A stretch of 64,000 nt of DNA, taken from Acidimicrobiales bacterium. GTDB taxonomy: Bacteria > Actinomycetota > Acidimicrobiia > Acidimicrobiales > SHLQ01. Below, piece by piece: positions 47,085-63,913 of this stretch; position 1 is the first letter of the stretch; every line of letters begins with the position of its first letter. The stretch lies in the NCBI GenBank assembly GCA_020628865.1, contig JAHDEJ010000007.1:1-64000 (forward strand), written 5' to 3'. Below the pieces are notes generated by a model. That model was given only the letters and a program-made list of their open reading frames with translations. It made no database searches and was not told the DNA's origin. The position numbers were made by a program, and so were the translations under genes.

Positions 47085-48767
47085 CTACCAGTCGTCCGAC
47101 GTGGTTCCCGACTGCGTACCCCGGCCCATCCGGCCACGACGCTGAATCCGGACCTTCTTCCGTAGCCAGTTGTACGCCGTCGCCGCCGCATCGACCTGGT
47201 CGTCGTGGCGGCCCGTCGGGAACGCTGCGAGCTCACGAACGAACGGGCCCGTCCACTGCCGGCCCGCCCCTTCGCCGGGCATGTCGCCCGACAGCTTCAC
47301 CCAGCCCCGCTGCTGCTCAGCGGACAGCGACTGGGCGCGCACCAGCTTCGAACCGGTCGCCGGCACATGATGCACCGGATACTTGGCCAGCAGCTTCGCC
47401 TGATCCTCTTCCCACGTGACACCAGCAGCGCCCGGCTGCTTCTCGATGACGATCGAGACCGCCTGGTTCGAACCGAAGAACTGGGCGTCATAGGCGGCGA
47501 CACGGGCGATGTTGTCGTCCACCGACGTGCCGTGCGCCCGGAACCGGGCCACATGCAGGATCGTCGCCCGATACTCCTGATCGATGCCGATCAAACAGCC
47601 GACCGTGAAATCCGATGTTTCCTTCTCGGTCGCGGCCAGATCCCAGCCGCGCGCCAACCAGATGTAGTCGGTGCCCCAGGCGGCTTCGAACGACACCCGT
47701 TCCCAGTTCTCCGACGGGAACGTGTCGCCCTCCACGACATGCTCTTTGTGCTGCTTCTCCGACATGAACGCCGCCAGGCCCATGTCGTTCATTTCTTTCT
47801 CGGTCGTTTCGAGATCGAGGCCGGCCCACGACGGCTGACCCGACAGCACCACGTACCGGCGCGGATCCTCGTCGCTCGGGATCTGCTCTTCGTACTCGAG
47901 GTCCCAGACCTGCGGGACCGGCCCGACCGTGATCCGATCGGAAAGGAAATCGGCTCGTTTGTCGAGCAGCTGCGCCATCATCGAGTCGCCGTGGATCATG
48001 TTCTGGATGTAGACGATGATCACGTTCTCGGCGCCCGCCGGGATGATCGCGTTCGTCACGATCTCGATCTTCTTGCGGGTCATGTACGGCGTGTCGTGCT
48101 TTTCCTCGAGATCGTCGAGGATGATCATGCCCGGCCGGTCATCCTCGACCTTCGCGCCACGGATCGCCTGATCCATGCCGAGCGCGTCGATCGTCAACCC
48201 CGACCGTGTACGGATCCGGGCCCGACGCCAATCACGGGCCGTGCCCTTCGCCGTCACATACGTCGACGCCACGTCCGGGTAGGCGGCGGTCATGATCGGT
48301 GACGCCAACAGCTCGCCGACGTCCGACACCTTTCCCTCGGCCGCCGTTTGGGTCGATTGGACGTACAAGCAGTAGGGGCGGAGCCGCATCATCGCCACCT
48401 GGGCGAGCATCAGCTGCAACGTCGTCGTCTTCGCTCCGCCACGATTCAGGCACATGACCATCGGCCGAGGACGGGTCTGGTCGATCGAATGCAACCAGTT
48501 CCACGCCGTACGGTGATGGGCCGCATAGTCGACCGACGCATAGCCGGGAGCCAGCAGGGCGTTGGTGAGCTCCCAATACTTGCAATCGATCGCCAGACGC
48601 ATCAGCGCCGCCCGATCGGCGATCGCCGGATCCGAACCGATCGCCTCGATCGCGTTGTGGAACTGGTCGACGAGCGGATCGGACAGGTCCACCAGGCCGG
48701 TGCCGGTCCGGCGCACCGGACGGAACTCGGGTTCGTCCGGCACGGCGAGCGTCGTCACCGCGCTCAC
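47085..48767 (-). CDS. terL: terminase large subunit
   Basis: 560 residues. ATPase: Walker A RGGAKTT (residues ~109-115), Walker B MIILDDLE with catalytic Glu (~221). Nuclease: RGWDLAATEKETSDFT, SIVIEKQPGA and GRHDDQVDAAATAY give RNase-H-like acidic residues. Motor and headful or site-specific nuclease for DNA packaging. GTG 48767 overlaps the small-subunit stop (GTGA). Unusually far (~37 kb) from the portal gene. Confidence 0.9.
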   Translation of the reverse strand: MSAVTTLAVPDEPEFRPVRRTGTGLVDLSDPLVDQFHNAIEAIGSDPAIADRAALMRLAIDCKYWELTNALLAPGYASVDYAAHHRTAWNWLHSIDQTRPRPMVMCLNRGGAKTTTLQLMLAQVAMMRLRPYCLYVQSTQTAAEGKVSDVGELLASPIMTAAYPDVASTYVTAKGTARDWRRARIRTRSGLTIDALGMDQAIRGAKVEDDRPGMIILDDLEEKHDTPYMTRKKIEIVTNAIIPAGAENVIIVYIQNMIHGDSMMAQLLDKRADFLSDRITVGPVPQVWDLEYEEQIPSDEDPRRYVVLSGQPSWAGLDLETTEKEMNDMGLAAFMSEKQHKEHVVEGDTFPSENWERVSFEAAWGTDYIWLARGWDLAATEKETSDFTVGCLIGIDQEYRATILHVARFRAHGTSVDDNIARVAAYDAQFFGSNQAVSIVIEKQPGAAGVTWEEDQAKLLAKYPVHHVPATGSKLVRAQSLSAEQQRGWVKLSGDMPGEGAGRQWTGPFVRELAAFPTGRHDDQVDAAATAYNWLRKKVRIQRRGRMGRGTQSGTTSDDW

Positions 48768-49447
48768 TTCTTCGCCGCCGCCTTCTTCACCGGCTTCTTC
48801 GCTGCCGTCTTCTTCTTGGCCGGCGCCTTCTTCTTCACCGGCTTCTTCGCCGGCTTCTTCGCCGGTTCCTCCTCCGGCTGCGCCCGAGCCGCCTCGAGTA
48901 GCGACGTCAACGCCTGCGACACCTGCGGATCCGGCTCCGCCTCCACCTCAATCGGGCCGCCCTCCGGACCCGACAACTCCACCTTCTGATCCGGTTCGCC
49001 CCGAGATGTCCGCTCGACCTTCGTCCCCACCTCCAACCAACGAATCAGCTCCGACGCCGACATCTTGTTCAGATCGATCGCCTCGATCCCGTTCGCCTCG
49101 TCGCCCAACAGCCGCTGCGCCACCTTCTGCAACGTCTGACGAGACAGATCGGCATGGAACTTCGCCGTTTCCCGGCGGGCCTCCTCGAGCTCGTGGCGGG
49201 CGATCCGGTCGAGGTGGATGTCCCACCGTCGGCAGCGTTCCTGCCACCACCAGCGGGCCGACAGCTGTCCAATGTTCGTGAGGGACATGTCCAGCTGCTG
49301 CGCGAGCGACCGTAGCGATCGGGCTGTGGGGTCGAGGTTCCGGTAGGCGGCGAACGCGGCGAAGCTCTTTCCCGCTTCCTTGGGGAGCTGTTCCCAGGGT
49401 TCGCAGTCGAGCCGGTCCCAGTCGGGTTCGGGGCGGGAGTTGGGCAT
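48764..49447 (-). CDS. terminase small subunit-like protein with histone-H1-like tail
   Basis: 227 residues from ATG 49447. HTH-like region (RSLAQQLDMSLTNIGQLSARWWWQERCRRWDIH), helical middle, and a C-terminal (KK/A/P)-rich tail of ~35 residues like bacterial histone-H1 repeats. Position directly before terL supports DNA recognition for packaging. The tail may bind DNA non-specifically. Confidence 0.75.
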   Translation of the reverse strand: MPNSRPEPDWDRLDCEPWEQLPKEAGKSFAAFAAYRNLDPTARSLRSLAQQLDMSLTNIGQLSARWWWQERCRRWDIHLDRIARHELEEARRETAKFHADLSRQTLQKVAQRLLGDEANGIEAIDLNKMSASELIRWLEVGTKVERTSRGEPDQKVELSGPEGGPIEVEAEPDPQVSQALTSLLEAARAQPEEEPAKKPAKKPVKKKAPAKKKTAAKKPVKKAAAKK

Positions 49448-50313
49448 CAGACGAACAGGGACCAGGGGCTGTCGGTGTCGGTGAGCAGTCCGGTCTCGTA
49501 GGCGTGGTCGATTTTGTGGCGGATCTGGTCGGCGATGTCGTCGGGGATGACGCCGGTGCCCATGACTTCGACTACGGGGGTGGTTGCGGTGTCGGGTTGG
49601 GGGTCTTCGGCGAGCCGTTGGAGGCCGGCGTTGACCATGTACGAAATCGCGGTGCCGACGGAGACGATGGAGCGTTCTCGTCGGACGGTCGAGAGGGCGT
49701 CGATGAGTTTGCGGTAGTGCTCGATTGAGGCGTAGCCGTACAGGTCGCCGGTCTTGTCGACTTTGTCGATCAGTTCGGAGAAGTCGTCTTGTTGGGCGGG
49801 GGTGAACGTGAACACGATCGTGCGCCATGTGAACGGGACGGCGGGGGCGGGGAGGATCGATTCGTCGGCGGCTTTCGGGGTGGGGAGCAGGTCGACGTCG
49901 AGGCCGGTGGCGAGGAGCTGGTCGGGGTTGCTGATTTCGGCGACCATGCGGCGCAGCACATCAGCGTCGGACTCGCCGACCAACGCGTTGTGGGCGATCT
50001 GCTTGGCGACCTGTTCGCCGCGGTCCATGTTGGTGCGATCGACGATCGTCGGGATCTCGGTGAGGCCGGCGACTCGGGCGGCACGGGACCGGTGGTGTCC
50101 GGAGATGATGTCCAGATGGGTCGGTTCGGCGATGTCGGCCGGCAGGTGGCAGTAGGGGAACTGTTCGAGGGCGCCGCGTTGGCGGATGTTGTCGACGAGC
50201 TGATCGAACTTCGCCGGTGCCATCACCTGAGCGTTGACATCGGCTTCGCGAAGCTCGTCGATGCCGACCATCCACAGTTCCATGCCGTCGCCGAGGTCAA
50301 CGAGTTTGTGCAT
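49447..50313 (-). CDS. ParB/Srx-fold nuclease-like protein
   Basis: 288 residues. N-terminal ParB-like domain with DIISGHHRSRAARVAGLTEIPTIV (the GxxR motif region). C-terminal helical domain. ATG 50313 overlaps the preceding stop (TGATG). Phage ParB-like proteins beside terminase often act as DNA nickases or CTP-dependent DNA clamps; which applies is not visible. Confidence 0.75.
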   Translation of the reverse strand: MHKLVDLGDGMELWMVGIDELREADVNAQVMAPAKFDQLVDNIRQRGALEQFPYCHLPADIAEPTHLDIISGHHRSRAARVAGLTEIPTIVDRTNMDRGEQVAKQIAHNALVGESDADVLRRMVAEISNPDQLLATGLDVDLLPTPKAADESILPAPAVPFTWRTIVFTFTPAQQDDFSELIDKVDKTGDLYGYASIEHYRKLIDALSTVRRERSIVSVGTAISYMVNAGLQRLAEDPQPDTATTPVVEVMGTGVIPDDIADQIRHKIDHAYETGLLTDTDSPWSLFV

Positions 50314-52562
50314 CAGTCCGTTCCTGTCTTTCGGGTGTTCTTCGCTCGCTGCTGTTTCCAGCGTTCGTCCCGGTCCCACCAGCGGCGGTACGTGTCGGCG
50401 ATGCCGTCGTCGCCCAGGTCGCCCCGGTAGATCAGCTTGAATCCGTGCTCCGGGTGGACGTCGCGGCGGGCCAGTTCCATCAGGCCCCGGTAGCCCTTCA
50501 CCTCGTGCTTCGAGGTGAACATGACGGTGGTGATGCCCTCGGCGAGGTCGACGGCCATCATCGTTTTCGGTGACGCCATCGCCTGCAAGGTGGGGCGTTG
50601 CATGGCGAGCATGGCGCCCAACAGGGTCAGCCGGCCGTCGTCGTCACGGGGTGGGGCGAACGACCATTGCAGGATCGCGAGTTTCGGGGCCCGAGGGGAG
50701 TGCGGCCGGAACACCGGCGACAGGTCCACACCGAACGCACAGGCGATCTTGCCGTCGACCAGCACGGCGGCGGAACCGGCGGCGGCGTCGGTCAGGAACC
50801 GGTGAGCGAACCGCTGTTTCAGGTAGTTCGCTTCGCCCGGATCCAACATGGCGAGGCGGACGTCGGCTTTGCGGCGCAGCGGATCGTCCGGCTCGAGCAC
50901 CGGCCAACGCGGTTCTGAACGGACCGCTTGGGTGCGTTTGGGGGTGACCTTCACGCCGCCAACTGCGTCGAGGAGCTCGTCAGGGCGGTTCGTCACGTAG
51001 TAGGTGTGATGGCCGGCAGCGCCAGAGCCGCGGGCATACACCGGTGGGCCGGCCGGTTTCCCGATCGGCGCCATCTGGATCGACACGACCAAACATTCGG
51101 CGTCAGCTGCCTGGGCGAGCAGATCGGTGACGCCCTGCTGAGGGTCGAAGATCTTGTAGTCGGGTTCGGTCCAATCGATCCGGCCGCCCGTGTCGAACTG
51201 CTGCTCGAAGCCAGAGTTATGCATGGCGTAGCCCTCGCCGATGTACGTGCCCGAGTCGGTGGTGATCGACTGGATCTCCCGCAAACCGACCGGTTCGACC
51301 GACACGATCTGGACCTTCTCGATGATCCGGAACCCCTTCGGTGGCCGGTACTGGCCGAGGAGCCGGATCGGTCGGAAAAGGCCGAGCGCCCTGGTCGTCT
51401 CGGCGACGTTCGTGATCGACAGTTGGTGGACGTCCCCATTGGTTCCGCCACCGGCCGAGTGCGAGACAACGAAGCCATGCTCTTTGAGGATGCGTTCGCA
51501 CTCGTCGAGCACCGGACCGGACTTCCGGGACACTGTGAGCGAAAACGAGCTCTTCTTGCCTGGCTGCATGCTCAGATGGCCCTCGCCGTCGTACATGCCC
51601 GACAGCCAGCCGGCATCGAACGACCGGGCTGGTTCCCACATGTCGTACGCCCTCAGCGCGAACATGCCGACCAGCGGGCGAGGACGCTCACCGCCCGTGC
51701 CTTCCGACGTCACATACTGCCGGTTGGAGGCCGTGTACTCGTACGGGTCGACCAGCCATGGATGGTTGGTGGTGCACACCACCGAATCGCCGTTGGCGAG
51801 CGTTACGCGGACGCACGGCGCTGTTCGACGATCGGACCGGGTGATCGTCGCGATCTTGGAGTTGCGGCGACCGTGCGCAACATCGGGGGTCTCTTCGTCG
51901 AAGGCGACGATCTGGTCGCCGACCTCGAGCTCACCGCACGGCACCCAGCGCAGGTCAGCGGTCAAGATGCGCTCAGAGATCTCCAAGCATTTGTAGGTCG
52001 GCACGTTGGCGATCATCAGCGCTTTCGGATCGGTGAGGATCCGGTCGAGGTGATCGACGACGTCTTCGCCGGCGAACTTTGCGCCAGCCAACTCGCCGGC
52101 CAACGCCTTCGTGCGTTTCGTCAGCGACGCCCGATGATCCGACGCTGCGGCTTTGAGCTCGTCGACGATCGCTGCGGTGTAGTCGGAGTCCTTGCGAGCC
52201 AGGATCGCTTCGTTGCGTTGCACGACGATCTCGTGGAACAGATGGGCGGCCTGGGCGCACGGGTCGTCGCTGTCGAACGGGAACGGATCGCCGAGCAGCG
52301 TGACGTTCAGTTCCTCGAGGGACCGGCCAGCGATCGCCGTGCCCAACGCACAGCTGAACAGGGTGACGTCGGAAAGCTCCATGAGCTTCGGGTCCCAACC
52401 GAGGCTGCACGCGAGACTGCCGACGGCATAGGAGCCGCCGGCAGGTTCATGCAACGCCGAGTACTTCGATCGGATGGCCGGCGAGGCGAGCAGCTCGCCG
52501 AGCCAGGCCCGTTCCGGTGCTTCAACAACCCCGAGAAACAGACCCCACGGCATTTGGTGCAT
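50313..52562 (-). CDS. methyltransferase-like phage protein interrupted by an intein
   Basis: 749 residues including a 258-residue intein (residues 192-449). The spliced host protein is ~491 residues: EPAGGSYAVGSLACSLGW resembles a SAM-binding motif and DVTLFSCALG and NVPTYK (the position of DPPY in adenine methyltransferases) follow. The intein sits right after NVPTYK, at a conserved site as inteins usually do. It may be a putative antirestriction or DNA-modifying enzyme working with the ParB-like protein downstream. No SD at ATG 52562; transcription probably comes through the tRNA-Pro promoter. Confidence 0.6.
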   Translation of the reverse strand: MHQMPWGLFLGVVEAPERAWLGELLASPAIRSKYSALHEPAGGSYAVGSLACSLGWDPKLMELSDVTLFSCALGTAIAGRSLEELNVTLLGDPFPFDSDDPCAQAAHLFHEIVVQRNEAILARKDSDYTAAIVDELKAAASDHRASLTKRTKALAGELAGAKFAGEDVVDHLDRILTDPKALMIANVPTYKCLEISERILTADLRWVPCGELEVGDQIVAFDEETPDVAHGRRNSKIATITRSDRRTAPCVRVTLANGDSVVCTTNHPWLVDPYEYTASNRQYVTSEGTGGERPRPLVGMFALRAYDMWEPARSFDAGWLSGMYDGEGHLSMQPGKKSSFSLTVSRKSGPVLDECERILKEHGFVVSHSAGGGTNGDVHQLSITNVAETTRALGLFRPIRLLGQYRPPKGFRIIEKVQIVSVEPVGLREIQSITTDSGTYIGEGYAMHNSGFEQQFDTGGRIDWTEPDYKIFDPQQGVTDLLAQAADAECLVVSIQMAPIGKPAGPPVYARGSGAAGHHTYYVTNRPDELLDAVGGVKVTPKRTQAVRSEPRWPVLEPDDPLRRKADVRLAMLDPGEANYLKQRFAHRFLTDAAAGSAAVLVDGKIACAFGVDLSPVFRPHSPRAPKLAILQWSFAPPRDDDGRLTLLGAMLAMQRPTLQAMASPKTMMAVDLAEGITTVMFTSKHEVKGYRGLMELARRDVHPEHGFKLIYRGDLGDDGIADTYRRWWDRDERWKQQRAKNTRKTGTD
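51216..51989 (-). other. intein with LAGLIDADG homing-endonuclease motif
   Basis: Residues 192-449 of the host protein. Cys192 begins block A (CLEISERILTADLRWVPCGE); NGDSVVCTTNHPW carries block B TxxH (Thr264, His267); DAGWLSGMYDGEG is a LAGLIDADG-type block C; the C-terminus is MHN followed by Ser450 (His448, Asn449). All four splicing residues are present, so it should splice. At 258 residues it is a small endonuclease-containing intein, with one clear LAGLIDADG motif. Confidence 0.9.
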
Positions 52563-52596: not shown

Positions 52597-52672
52597 TGGT
52601 CCGGAGCCACAGGGATCGAACCTGGCTCTCCACGCCCCAAGCGTGGTGTGTTCCCCAGAACACCTACTCCGA
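52597..52672 (-). tRNA. phage tRNA-Pro(TGG) with encoded CCA
   Basis: 76 nt cloverleaf: acceptor TCGGAGT/GCTCCGG, discriminator A and encoded CCA; anticodon stem CCACG/CGTGG with loop CTTGGGG, anticodon TGG, G37. The T-stem has one mismatch. Reads CCA/CCG proline codons. Driven by TGATACG-box promoter 52679-52707 with +1 about at the mature 5' end. It lies between the DUF488 gene and the intein gene. Confidence 0.8.
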
Positions 52673-52719: not shown

Positions 52720-53175
52720 TTAGACCCCGAGTGTCGGAGCCGCCTTCTCCTGCCGTTTCTTCATCGCCAGGAGCTTCTGCGACAGATTGCCCCGATCATC
52801 GATCTCGGGGACGTTCTCGCCCGTCTGGGCATGCCACCAGTCGGCGAACATGCGTCGGTGACATGAGCCCTCACCCTGGATCTCGATGTGTTCGAAACAC
52901 AACAGGACCGGATCAGCCCCGTCGCCGGTGATCGCCAAGATCTGCCGTCGGATCTCATCGACACCCATCTCATCGAGTTGGGCCACATACTTTGCGGTGA
53001 AGTCACCTCCCCCGTACATCGTGTCCCGACTGGGAGCCAACCCACGGATCGACCCGGCCAGGGTGTAGGGGAGTTTGAACCGTGGTGCCCCCATCGTGAT
53101 ACGGATCGGTACCAGCCCGAGCCGAAGGATCTCTTCGCCGTTCTGGTAGCGACTCGTGTGAATCGTTGTCGTCAT
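52720..53175 (-). CDS. DUF488 family protein
   Basis: 151 residues, ATG 53175. LLCFEHIEIQGEGSCHRRMFADWWHAQTG and LAPS near residue 50 are the conserved elements of DUF488, with the CHR catalytic-like motif. Function of family unknown, often with restriction/modification or DNA-repair genes. Overlaps the ParB gene stop (ATGA). Confidence 0.75.
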   Translation of the reverse strand: MTTTIHTSRYQNGEEILRLGLVPIRITMGAPRFKLPYTLAGSIRGLAPSRDTMYGGGDFTAKYVAQLDEMGVDEIRRQILAITGDGADPVLLCFEHIEIQGEGSCHRRMFADWWHAQTGENVPEIDDRGNLSQKLLAMKKRQEKAAPTLGV

Positions 53176-53945
53176 GTCTCTCTTTCCAGCGCGGCCCGTA
53201 TCTCGGACCCGAGCTGCTCGCCGTCGAGCTGCTCCGCCGCCTGATGGAGAAGCCCGATCAACGCCTTGCGGGAGCACCGCCGGTTCGCCTGAGCGTCCAA
53301 CGCGTACTCCTCGATCGACAGTTCGAACGACGAACCATCGAACAGATCCTGTGTCGCCTCCTCGGACGCGACTCGTTCGGTGAGACGCTGCACGGCCCAC
53401 CAGTCGAGACCCTGCCCGACGATCTCGGCGGCGACCCGCCGTTGGTTCACCAACGACAATCGGGCCACCATCCGGGCGGCGTCGGTACCCAACGCACCAG
53501 ACGCCACCTGCTGTTGCACGCCGTCATCGAGGGTGAGGAGGGTCAAACGGTTCTCGACCCTCGATACGCCCACCCCAGCGATCTCAGCGACACGTTCCAC
53601 CGTCGAACCCGAATCGAGTGCCTTGCGGTAGGCCATCGCCTCCTCGAGCGGGTTCAACTCGACGCGGGCCATGTTCTCTGCGAGCATCGCTTCACCGGCC
53701 AGCACATCATCGGCGTGCAACAACCTGGCCGGGACCGTGGCGAGCCCAGCGAGCTGCGACGCGCGCCATCGCCGTTCACCGGCGATCAGTTCGTATCCGT
53801 CGTCGGTGGGACGCACGGTCACGGCCTGCAGGACCCCAAGTTCAGAGATCGACTTGGCCAAACCGCCAAGTTCGGTGGGGTCGAAGACCTTCCGGTCGTT
53901 ATCGCCCGGGGTGATGTCGCAGACCGAAATCTCTTGAATGTCCAT
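53172..53945 (-). CDS. ParB family DNA-binding protein, leaderless
   Basis: 257 residues. ParB box I/II: GVLQAVTVRP, YELIAGERRWRASQLAGL, ENMARVELNPLEEAMAYRKAL, then HTH-containing centre (VERVAEIAGVGVSRVENRLTLL). A canonical KorB/ParB organisation (shorter than chromosomal ParB). ATG 53945 is 7 nt after -10 TATGGT. No ParA is visible in the window, so partition is not implied; a regulator or CTP-clamp role is possible. Confidence 0.85.
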   Translation of the reverse strand: MDIQEISVCDITPGDNDRKVFDPTELGGLAKSISELGVLQAVTVRPTDDGYELIAGERRWRASQLAGLATVPARLLHADDVLAGEAMLAENMARVELNPLEEAMAYRKALDSGSTVERVAEIAGVGVSRVENRLTLLTLDDGVQQQVASGALGTDAARMVARLSLVNQRRVAAEIVGQGLDWWAVQRLTERVASEEATQDLFDGSSFELSIEEYALDAQANRRCSRKALIGLLHQAAEQLDGEQLGSEIRAALERET

Positions 53946-53952
53946 CTGCATC

Positions 53953-53981
53953 ACCATAGGTAATGTGTATCAAGATGTCCA
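53953..53981 (-). promoter_or_regulatory. TGATACG-box promoter, leaderless
   Basis: TGGACA -35, 17 nt with TTGATACA, -10 TATGGT, 7 nt to ATG 53945. Confidence 0.75.
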
Positions 53982-61938: not shown

Positions 61939-62367
61939 TTGTCCCAGCGGGACGCGTCGCACCCCTATGCGGGGCTGTTCCAGTCTCAGGACTGGATGGT
62001 CAACGCAGCTTGCCGACCCGACAACCGGCCGCCATGGATCAGCGAATACGACTGGACCAACATGTTCTTCCCCGAACGAGGGGAGAGCTCGGCCGAGGCC
62101 GAAGAGATCTGCGGCTTCTGCCCTGCCGTCGACAACTGCCTCAGCTACGGCATGTCGGAGAAGTTCGGCATCTGGGGCGGATTGCGCACGTCGCAACGCC
62201 GGCGGCTCGGCCAGTGGGACGCCGACGTCGTCACCGAAGCCGAAACGATCCTGGCTTCCGACCAGGCACTGTTCTCGCTGCCGGCCGTCGCCGCGCCCAA
62301 GGCGGTCCCTCGGGCCCGACGCAAACGGCGGGCTGCAGTCGACGTCGAACAGCTCGGCCTGTTCTAG
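61939..62367 (+). CDS. WhiB-like Fe-S regulator
   Basis: 142 residues. Four Cys (25, 58, 61, 67) in C-x32-CxxC-x5-C and GIWGG (77-81) are diagnostic. C-terminus basic (RARRKRR). TTG start 61939. Actinophage WhiB proteins can act on host WhiB regulons and superinfection. Stop shares CTAG with the integrase stop. Confidence 0.9.
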   Translation: MSQRDASHPYAGLFQSQDWMVNAACRPDNRPPWISEYDWTNMFFPERGESSAEAEEICGFCPAVDNCLSYGMSEKFGIWGGLRTSQRRRLGQWDADVVTEAETILASDQALFSLPAVAAPKAVPRARRKRRAAVDVEQLGLF

Positions 62368-63740
62368 TCGTCCTCAAGCTCATCGTCGCGCGCCGACGAG
62401 TGAAGCTCGTCGAGGTACTCGATCGCCGCCTGCTTGACCTCGCTGTTGTCGACCGAGTCGCGGATGTACCCTGCCGTCGTTTCGAAGCGGGCGTGCCCGA
62501 GCAGCTGCTGCATCACGATCGGCGGGATGTCCGGATTCATCGCCATCTGCGACGCATCAAGGCGACGGATCTGGTGCCACGACGGCGCCTTCTTGCGTGG
62601 CGGCACTGGGACGAGCCTGCGCCTGTATCGCTTCAAGCCCTTCTGGTCGTAGTGGGTCGACTGCTCGACCGTCACCAGGCCAGCGTTGATCGCTGCGCGC
62701 GACAGCCACGAGTTGAACCGGACCGGTGTCGTCAGCGTGTTCCGCTCCACCGCACCATCGTTGCCTGACGGGTAGTAGGCGAGGTCGAAGATGTAGTGGT
62801 GGTCGGGGATCGGCCCGAACTCGACCTCGCGGGCAGTACGCAGGAGAAACAGGTCATCCCACAGTGCGACGGGGACCGGCACCCGGCGCACACCGGCTTC
62901 GGTCTTGGGCGGGTTCACGAACACCTCGCCCTTCGCGTTCTGCGTCACCGAGCGGAGGATGTGCAGCGTCCGGTAGCCGCCTTTGTTCTCGAGATCCTCC
63001 CAGCAGATGCCGATGATCTCGCCGCGCCGGCAGCCGGTGGCGGCAGCGATCCGCAGAGCGAGCTTCGCTTCCATGAGCGTCGCGGCGTCGATCAGCTTGA
63101 CCAGGTCGACCGGATCCATCGCCGGAAGTCGCTCGGCCGGCTTTGCCACCTGCGTCCCCGGCGCCGCCCATGCCACCGACGCCAGGTCGACGACGTTCAG
63201 CCCGGCGAGCTGCGCGTGCTTGAACCCGGCCGACATCGCCTGCACCGCCTTGGCCACCGACGACCGGCTGAGGCCCTTGCCGCGCGTCGTCACGACCTCG
63301 GTCTGCAGGTAGATGAGGTGGCGTTGCATCTCGGCGCCAGTGATCTCGTCGATCGGCCGATCCGCGATCGGGTAGCCGGCAACGTGATTGTCGATGGTGG
63401 CGCGGCGGGTGGAGTTGGAGACCGGCCGGCGACGCAGCGCCAGAATCGCCTCGGCGCGGTCGACGAACTCGAGCAGCGTCGGCTGCTTCGTCAGATCCTC
63501 GACCTTGTTGCACAGGATCGTGAGCGCATCGTTGCGCCACTTGTGCAGTTCGATCGTCGCCGCGGGCTTCGAGTTGGCGGCGACCGTGTGCGATGCCGTG
63601 TGCCGCTTCCCGCCGAACTCGGGGCGAGCAGTCAGCTTGAGGACGAGCCGCCAGCGGCCTGGCTCGCTCTCCGAAACGCTGCCCAACGTCGTCTCGGGGC
63701 GGACGAACAGACGCTGTGCCCGTGCTTCGATTTCCTCCAT
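62364..63740 (-). CDS. int: phage tyrosine integrase
   Basis: 458 residues. Catalytic residues: Arg239 (TGCRRGEI), HQIR (His389, Arg392), LLGHARFETT (His416) and Tyr425. N-terminal SAM-like core-binding domain (~90-200). ATG 63740 after GAGGAAAG. Next to tRNA-Arg; predicted to recombine attP with a site in the tRNA gene. Confidence 0.95.
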   Translation of the reverse strand: MEEIEARAQRLFVRPETTLGSVSESEPGRWRLVLKLTARPEFGGKRHTASHTVAANSKPAATIELHKWRNDALTILCNKVEDLTKQPTLLEFVDRAEAILALRRRPVSNSTRRATIDNHVAGYPIADRPIDEITGAEMQRHLIYLQTEVVTTRGKGLSRSSVAKAVQAMSAGFKHAQLAGLNVVDLASVAWAAPGTQVAKPAERLPAMDPVDLVKLIDAATLMEAKLALRIAAATGCRRGEIIGICWEDLENKGGYRTLHILRSVTQNAKGEVFVNPPKTEAGVRRVPVPVALWDDLFLLRTAREVEFGPIPDHHYIFDLAYYPSGNDGAVERNTLTTPVRFNSWLSRAAINAGLVTVEQSTHYDQKGLKRYRRRLVPVPPRKKAPSWHQIRRLDASQMAMNPDIPPIVMQQLLGHARFETTAGYIRDSVDNSEVKQAAIEYLDELHSSARDDELEDD

Positions 63741-63776: not shown

Positions 63777-63841
63777 GTCCCCGAGGAAATCGGCCGAATC
63801 AATGGGCCTTGTGAATCTGTTGATTTTTCAACGTTTATTGG

Positions 63842-63913
63842 CGCCCTCGGCAGGATTCGAACCTGCGCTCACGGCTCCGGAGGCCGATGCTCTATCCACT
63901 GAGCTACGAGGGC
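63842..63913 (-). tRNA. tRNA-Arg(CCG), probable attachment site
   Basis: Acceptor GCCCTCG/CGAGGGC, anticodon loop CTCCGGA (anticodon CCG), GTTCGAATCC T-loop; no encoded CCA. Its 3' end faces the integrase, the usual attB geometry. The far att copy is outside the window, so the repeat cannot be confirmed. Confidence 0.9.

Follow-up and report, generated by a model that had tools for sequence, protein, structure and literature searches.

Which protein is interrupted by the intein encoded next to the terminase genes in the genome of an Acidimicrobiales bacterium, and what may this protein do for the phage it appears to come from? The window analysed here is a stretch of 64,000 nucleotides (assembly GCA_020628865.1, contig JAHDEJ010000007.1, positions 1 to 64,000). 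In brief, the open reading frame at 50313-52562 encodes a precursor in which an intein sits inside a protein that combines a Dam-like methylase domain with a GNAT domain, and its gene is part of a phage cassette, itself conserved, that also includes a DUF488-like protein, a ParB-like protein and a tRNA-like RNA. We suggest that the spliced enzyme most likely modifies a base of the phage DNA before packaging, together with its cassette partners. For the reading as a whole, from the intein in the fused enzyme to this likely function, we put the probability at roughly 0.8.

The intein and its insertion site

The 258-residue segment within this reading frame is an intein, and a chance match is ruled out. 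It is of class 1: position 1 is Cys192, block B reads T-T-N-H (within VVCTTNHPWLV), and the C-terminus is His-Asn (MHN) with Ser+1 as the next residue. A scan of viral contigs gave 80 inteins that align end to end with it (1-258); all those listed have Cys at position 1, and all end in HN followed by S, T or C. A tblastn search with the intein retrieved 152 phage records, each with at least 80% coverage (best 100%), mostly of terminase and portal genes. The NCBIfam model NF038136, which describes the intein-bearing radical SAM protein Rv2578c and hence another host protein, spans exactly residues 192-449, with an E value of 1e-6 that is far below the model cut-off. The LAGLIDADG_3 homing-endonuclease domain scores 22.1 bits against a Pfam cut-off of 22.5, and the motif LSGMYDGEG is present. 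A sequence search of the PDB with the intein as query gave no match.

Sixty-five distinct homologous open reading frames read across the insertion site without an insert. In these, the motif that precedes the intein (mostly NPPTYx) runs without interruption into a sequence that is typically [SAGTK]G[FY]E. The junction was aligned in the homologues of the cultured phages FP_Brigit, ValentiniPuff and Clawz, and in viral and bacterial contigs. Because the NF038136 match, the end-to-end aligned phage inteins and the intein-free homologues agree, the boundaries of the intein are confirmed.

The original prediction, made from the letters of the window, had described a complete 258-residue intein (Cys1, TxxH, LAGLIDADG, His-Asn-Ser) directly after an active-site-like NVPTYK motif. 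The intein is correct to the residue, the LAGLIDADG_3 score being borderline, and the motif turns out to be motif IV of the Dam-type fold. A search for intein-free homologues at the insertion site had been proposed as a check, and homologues carrying the segment as a normal part of the protein had been named as evidence to the contrary; both were looked for, and what was found were the 65 distinct homologues lacking the segment at this exact point. The probability that it is a normal domain of the protein family is thus virtually nil, and relatives of the intein are found in a wide range of proteins, terminase and portal among them.

The intein relatives from viral contigs (L116-L195) form a widespread family of phage inteins of 241-288 residues, whose host proteins fall into about 25 groups when clustered by BLAST. 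With 32 members, a terminase-like group is the largest, and its site reads ARQ.G^C...HN^[TS]T (the caret marks a junction).

The host enzyme

Two stretches flanking the intein match the Pfam family DAM-like-phage1 (PF22555; E 5e-40, 137.8 bits against a cut-off of 27), and the C-terminal part matches GNAT-phage-like (PF22559; E 2e-22, 80 bits against a cut-off of 27). An AlphaFold model of the precursor, built with 29 sequences, has a mean predicted local distance difference test score of 73; most blocks of the exteins exceed 85, and the intein scores low. VIA-align of this model placed E. coli Dam first (4rtn, Z 12.8, 200 residues, root mean square deviation 4.1) over model residues 6-529, spanning the intein. 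Residues from about 563 to 717 were matched to GNATs, where phage Mu Mom (8bv8) had a Z score of 9.5 and many other GNATs lay at Z 9-10. The Foldseek list included GNATs and PI-SceI inteins, all with E values above 0.001. Taken together, the Pfam and structural matches support a fusion of a Dam-like adenine methylase with a GNAT as the host protein.

The intein splits motif IV of the methylase domain (NxPTYK^SGFE, in the window NVPTYK^SGFE). This motif reads NPPTY in most family members, also FPPTY, and NVPTY in the window. Neither the window enzyme nor its NPPTY and FPPTY relatives have the pattern [DNS]PP[YFW] of amino-methyltransferases, and this departure weakens the claim of adenine methylation and leaves that of a common fold unaffected.

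Among 396 genomes of the phylum, PF22555 was found only in the genome from which the window comes. The precursor as a single query against viral contigs gave no close relatives; alignment-based searches were needed to reach them. PADLOC gave no meaningful match for the enzyme, which is thus not a listed defence system.

An intein clade in motif IV

Five other viral contigs (L116-L119 and L149) carry an intein in motif IV, in all cases within a protein with PF22555 and PF22559. These inteins are 36-42% identical to the window intein and are among its best matches, and a tree built from 76 phage inteins places them in one clade with it (support 100/91). The insertion point lies after PTYK or PAYK in the window and L149, and one codon earlier, after PPTY or PPFY, in L116-L119; with its insertion points one codon apart, the clade is a usable case for intein site shift. 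Contig L017 (1-30) opens with ATGATGCACAAT, that is MMHN joined to SGFEKWYD, and the upstream part is beyond the contig end. Since the inteins of this clade usually end in [LA]MHN, L017 likely carries a seventh member, cut by the contig end. The intein points to a phage enzyme with an active site so conserved that it can serve as a homing target.

The cassette adjoining the terminase genes

The conserved cassette consists of genes for the DUF488-like protein, Dam-GNAT and the ParB-like protein, followed by terS and terL (Table 1). Cassette loci were counted as independent after collapse at 90% identity. In 46 of the 49 independent loci the ParB-like gene directly follows Dam-GNAT. A homologue of the window DUF488-like gene was present in 34 of 41, at most 2.5 kb upstream and in the same orientation. 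An S-adenosylmethionine synthetase gene is found near Dam-GNAT in 8 of 41 loci. In the window, parB and the DUF488-like, Dam-GNAT and ParB-like genes are tightly packed, with overlapping stop and start codons at the parB/DUF488-like and Dam-GNAT/ParB-like junctions. The cassette is widespread: phages and prophages of Firmicutes, Actinobacteria and other groups carry it, among them the cultured Microbacterium phage ValentiniPuff and Faecalibacterium phage FP_Brigit.

Table 1. Features of the window discussed in the text
Feature	Position	Strand	Evidence and remarks
Terminase large subunit, terL	47085..48767	-	Terminase_6C; phrog_38
Terminase small subunit, terS	48764..49447	-	phrog_6299; start approximate
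ParB-like protein (phrog_7405)	49447..50313	-	PHROGs; TGATG overlap with Dam-GNAT stop
Precursor, Dam-like methylase and GNAT with intein inside	50313..52562	-	749 residues; predicted 491 once spliced
C-extein, remaining Dam-like domain and GNAT	50313..51215	-	Pfam, model; GNAT (PF22559) at residues 567-732, about 50367-50864
Intein, class 1 (Cys1, TTNH, HN, Ser+1)	51216..51989	-	258 residues, 192-449 of precursor
LAGLIDADG_3 homing-endonuclease domain of intein	51408..51620	-	Single motif LSGMYDGEG; just under Pfam cut-off
N-extein, Dam-like domain	51990..52562	-	Pfam, alignment, structure match; motif I (EPAGGSYAV), S-D-V, motif IV (NVPTYK at junction)
tRNA-like RNA	52597..52672	-	ARAGORN tRNA-Pro (tgg); between DUF488-like and Dam-GNAT genes
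DUF488-like protein, CxE...CHR...W...G....E	52720..53175	-	Weak Pfam matches, motif, homologues; likely ATG overlaps parB stop
ParB (ParB_N and HTH_ParB)	53172..53957	-	Pfam, PHROGs
Phage integrase	62364..63740	-	phrog_1
42-bp attachment core inside tRNA-Arg(ccg) 63839-63913	63841..63882	-	Identical copy on contig C90

The window DUF488-like protein does not reach the Pfam cut-off for DUF488 (14.0 bits against 22.2), and the relative from L012 likewise stays below that of DUF488-N3a (18.9 bits against 27). In an alignment of 50 sequences C168, E170, C180, H181 and R182 are conserved at 1.00, and W188, G194 and E199 are also seen. The C168xE170...C180-H-R pattern is that of the DUF488 active site. 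At the right end of ValentiniPuff lie a DUF488-like gene, gp111 (E 2e-28), and a tRNA-like element absent from the annotation, and gene 1 is Dam-GNAT. ValentiniPuff encodes, between gp111 and this element, a second and canonical-looking DUF488 protein, gp112 (L251:4368-4796), with CSE...CHR.

The original prediction had called the host protein methyltransferase-like, and PF22555 and the top structural match to E. coli Dam bear this out; it overlooked the C-terminal GNAT domain. Its ParB-like, terS and terL neighbours were found again with PHROGs, and the DUF488-like protein and the tRNA-like RNA of the cassette had escaped it.

The tRNA-like RNA

With ARAGORN and a covariance model, 39 of 45 independent loci show one tRNA-like element that lies upstream of the enzyme gene and shares its strand; the count includes weak elements in L078, L082 and L095 that are possibly ordinary tRNAs or chance matches. 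Relatives with the element include L002, L044, L088, L103 and L251. Where a DUF488-like gene was recognised, the element mostly lies 4-29 nucleotides after it. In Clawz, L022, L094 and L109 the enzyme is kept and a tRNA-like RNA was not detectable.

The element covaries strongly, differs in its anticodon between loci and is nearly constant at its acceptor end. Across 23 sequences, 94% were paired, with 105 double-change cells against 29 in shuffles. The anticodons vary, being Lys (ctt) in most Firmicutes-type loci and Arg, Pro or Gly elsewhere, and four elements (L049, L106, L007 and ValentiniPuff) have short anticodon loops of 6 nucleotides. In the acceptor stem, C1-G72, C2-G71 and G3-C70 occur together in 39 of 44 distinct elements (CCG...CGG); every one of the 44 has the second pair, and 43 have the third. 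CCA is encoded in 33 of the 44. None of the tRNAs sampled from the window's own genome has this triple.

The window element itself is degenerate, with U1.G72, C2-G71 and G3-C70, and is assigned by its position and acceptor bases, not by its overall score. It reaches 23.0 bits with the Rfam tRNA model (RF00005), below the gathering threshold of 29. With our covariance model R1 it scores 38 bits and is the weakest of the own-genome matches, where host tRNAs score 42-73 bits. R1 was for this reason rejected as a specific detector, and since it also picks up host tRNAs, the counts of elements rest on position and acceptor signature.

The acceptor signature was sought in 2.9 million viral contigs and turned up in 26, of which 18 have cassette genes. 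The other 8 show no such genes over the stretch read, so the signature cannot be called exclusive to the cassette. The phages L230, L233, L236, L245, L246 and L247 hold tRNA-like genes with the same CCGCC...GGCGGACCA acceptor and no cassette genes in the part read.

A tRNA-like RNA beside a methylase-acyltransferase fusion is not known to us from described DNA modification systems, and literature searches found no description of the cassette or its RNA. As far as we know and have searched, this RNA-bearing cassette is undescribed. The intein has thus led to a widespread and uncharacterised phage cassette, of which the RNA-bearing form is the part worth testing.

Proposed function and alternatives

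For splicing, homing, the substrate, its chemistry and the part of the RNA we infer the following. After translation the intein would excise by means of the Cys1 and Ser+1 nucleophiles and Asn cyclisation. Splicing would join NVPTYK to SGFE and yield the enzyme of 491 residues, whose active site would be interrupted until then. The endonuclease domain may home into intein-free copies of motif IV, and such presumed homing would explain why one intein clade recurs at motif IV in very different phages. The spliced enzyme would then make a modified base, probably adenine, in the phage DNA before packaging. The DUF488-like and ParB-like proteins, encoded around the enzyme and just upstream of the terminase, would act together with it, and the tRNA-like RNA would be a further conserved part of the cassette. 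Protective DNA modification before packaging is the most likely role of the cassette, and it is probably a hypermodification.

It should be noted that several points weigh against this reading. The LAGLIDADG match is slightly under the Pfam cut-off. By itself, Foldseek found nothing at E <= 0.001 with the complete model, whose intein part is of low confidence. NVPTY instead of NPPTY could mean that catalysis is impaired in the window enzyme. DNA as the substrate is suggested only by the fold, the location beside the terminase genes and the ParB-like neighbour, and ParB-like proteins and GNATs also have other roles.

The enzyme may instead act on RNA, be it the tRNA-like RNA of the cassette, host tRNAs or aminoacyl-tRNA, in counter-defence or host takeover. 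GNAT-fold enzymes acting on aminoacyl-tRNA exist, some Rossmann methylases act on RNA, and the element is present in 39 of 45 loci with its acceptor signature kept. We nevertheless regard an RNA substrate as unlikely, with a DNA adenine methylase as the top structural match, a cassette that adjoins the terminase genes and includes two ParB-type proteins, and four relatives (Clawz, L022, L094 and L109) that keep the enzyme without a detectable RNA. The RNA and DNA could also be connected: host synthetases would charge the tRNA-like RNA, and the GNAT would pass the amino acid, or an amide, to a base of the phage DNA. The acceptor triple, which 39 of 44 elements keep whether their anticodon is Lys, Arg or Pro and which the own-genome tRNAs sampled lack, would fit this supply of aminoacyl groups, as would the encoded CCA (33 of 44), the strong covariation and a GNAT fold that resembles Mu Mom. 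Against it, the 6-nucleotide anticodon loops may weaken recognition by synthetases, and the amino acid identity differs across the family; we offer it as a tentative possibility, though not a likely one. About equally doubtful is the full scheme, a hypermodification with a dedicated tRNA-like aminoacyl carrier. In it the Dam-like half would prepare a base and the GNAT half would move the amino acid onto it, the DUF488-like and ParB-like proteins would be their partners, and the intein would parasitise the catalytic motif across unrelated phages. If the RNA does take part in the chemistry, aminoacyl-tRNA-dependent DNA modification would be a new principle, testable in phages already in collections.

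That the element is an ordinary phage tRNA, used for decoding or for resisting tRNA-cutting defences and beside the cassette by chance, is quite unlikely. Phages commonly carry tRNAs, and the weak or displaced hits in L078 and L095 resemble ordinary ones. Anticodon-loop mutations that evade tRNA-targeting defences have been published (PMC10264068). An ordinary tRNA would fit poorly with one element in the same place in 39 of 45 independent loci, usually 4-29 nucleotides after the DUF488-like gene, with an acceptor end that stays constant while anticodons change, with cassettes on 18 of the 26 contigs that bear the signature, and with a window element under the Rfam tRNA cut-off. It is also improbable that the intein is inactive in splicing and homing and the reading frame a dead gene in a decaying prophage. 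Val in place of Pro in motif IV and the borderline LAGLIDADG score would agree with decay, whereas the splicing residues are all intact, the 2.25-kb frame is open like those of the phage genes on either side, and five relatives retain an intact intein.

Relation to known systems

The proposed DNA-modifying enzyme and its intein have partial counterparts among described systems. E. coli Dam shares the fold of precursor residues 6-529 and the positions of motifs I and IV with the window enzyme; it differs in sequence (11-14% identity), in having DPPY where the family has NPPTY, and in lacking the fusion to a GNAT. Phage Mu Mom, a phage DNA modification enzyme that adds a glycinamide-type group to adenine, has the GNAT fold in common with the C-terminal domain. 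Mom is without a Dam-like domain, and many unrelated GNATs score equally, so this is a likeness of fold and not membership.

The intein itself is of a known kind, to which it adds a new member. Inteins have been reported in the mycobacteriophage N6/N4 DNA methylases DNMT-1 and DNMT-2 (PMC5050341; methylase family PMC9957025) and in active centres of DNA-modifying proteins (PMC5050341). These inteins thus also sit in phage DNA methylases; their hosts are described as N6_N4_Mtase and ours has PF22555 and a GNAT. The terminase inteins of mycobacteriophage cluster C1 (LRRHood gp245) and the portal inteins of Gordonia phages (Minos gp8) are of the same size class and of the LAGLIDADG type, for which the window intein scores at the borderline, with about 32% and 30% identity, respectively, over the whole 258 residues. 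They differ in hosts and sites, and in the tree the window intein groups with the Dam-GNAT inteins and not with them.

The prophage and its attachment site

The window appears to hold most of a prophage integrated in a tRNA-Arg gene, with its other end on another contig, C90. The integrase gene borders the tRNA-Arg gene, and the 42-bp core of the latter repeats on C90 (26656), beside a partial tRNA, which is what an integrated prophage with its two ends on different contigs should show. The cassette RNA was considered as attachment site and rejected, because the integrase and the 42-bp core lie at the tRNA-Arg gene, 11 kb away. Neither this integration nor the recurrence of the intein clade in other phages had been noticed in the first reading of the window.

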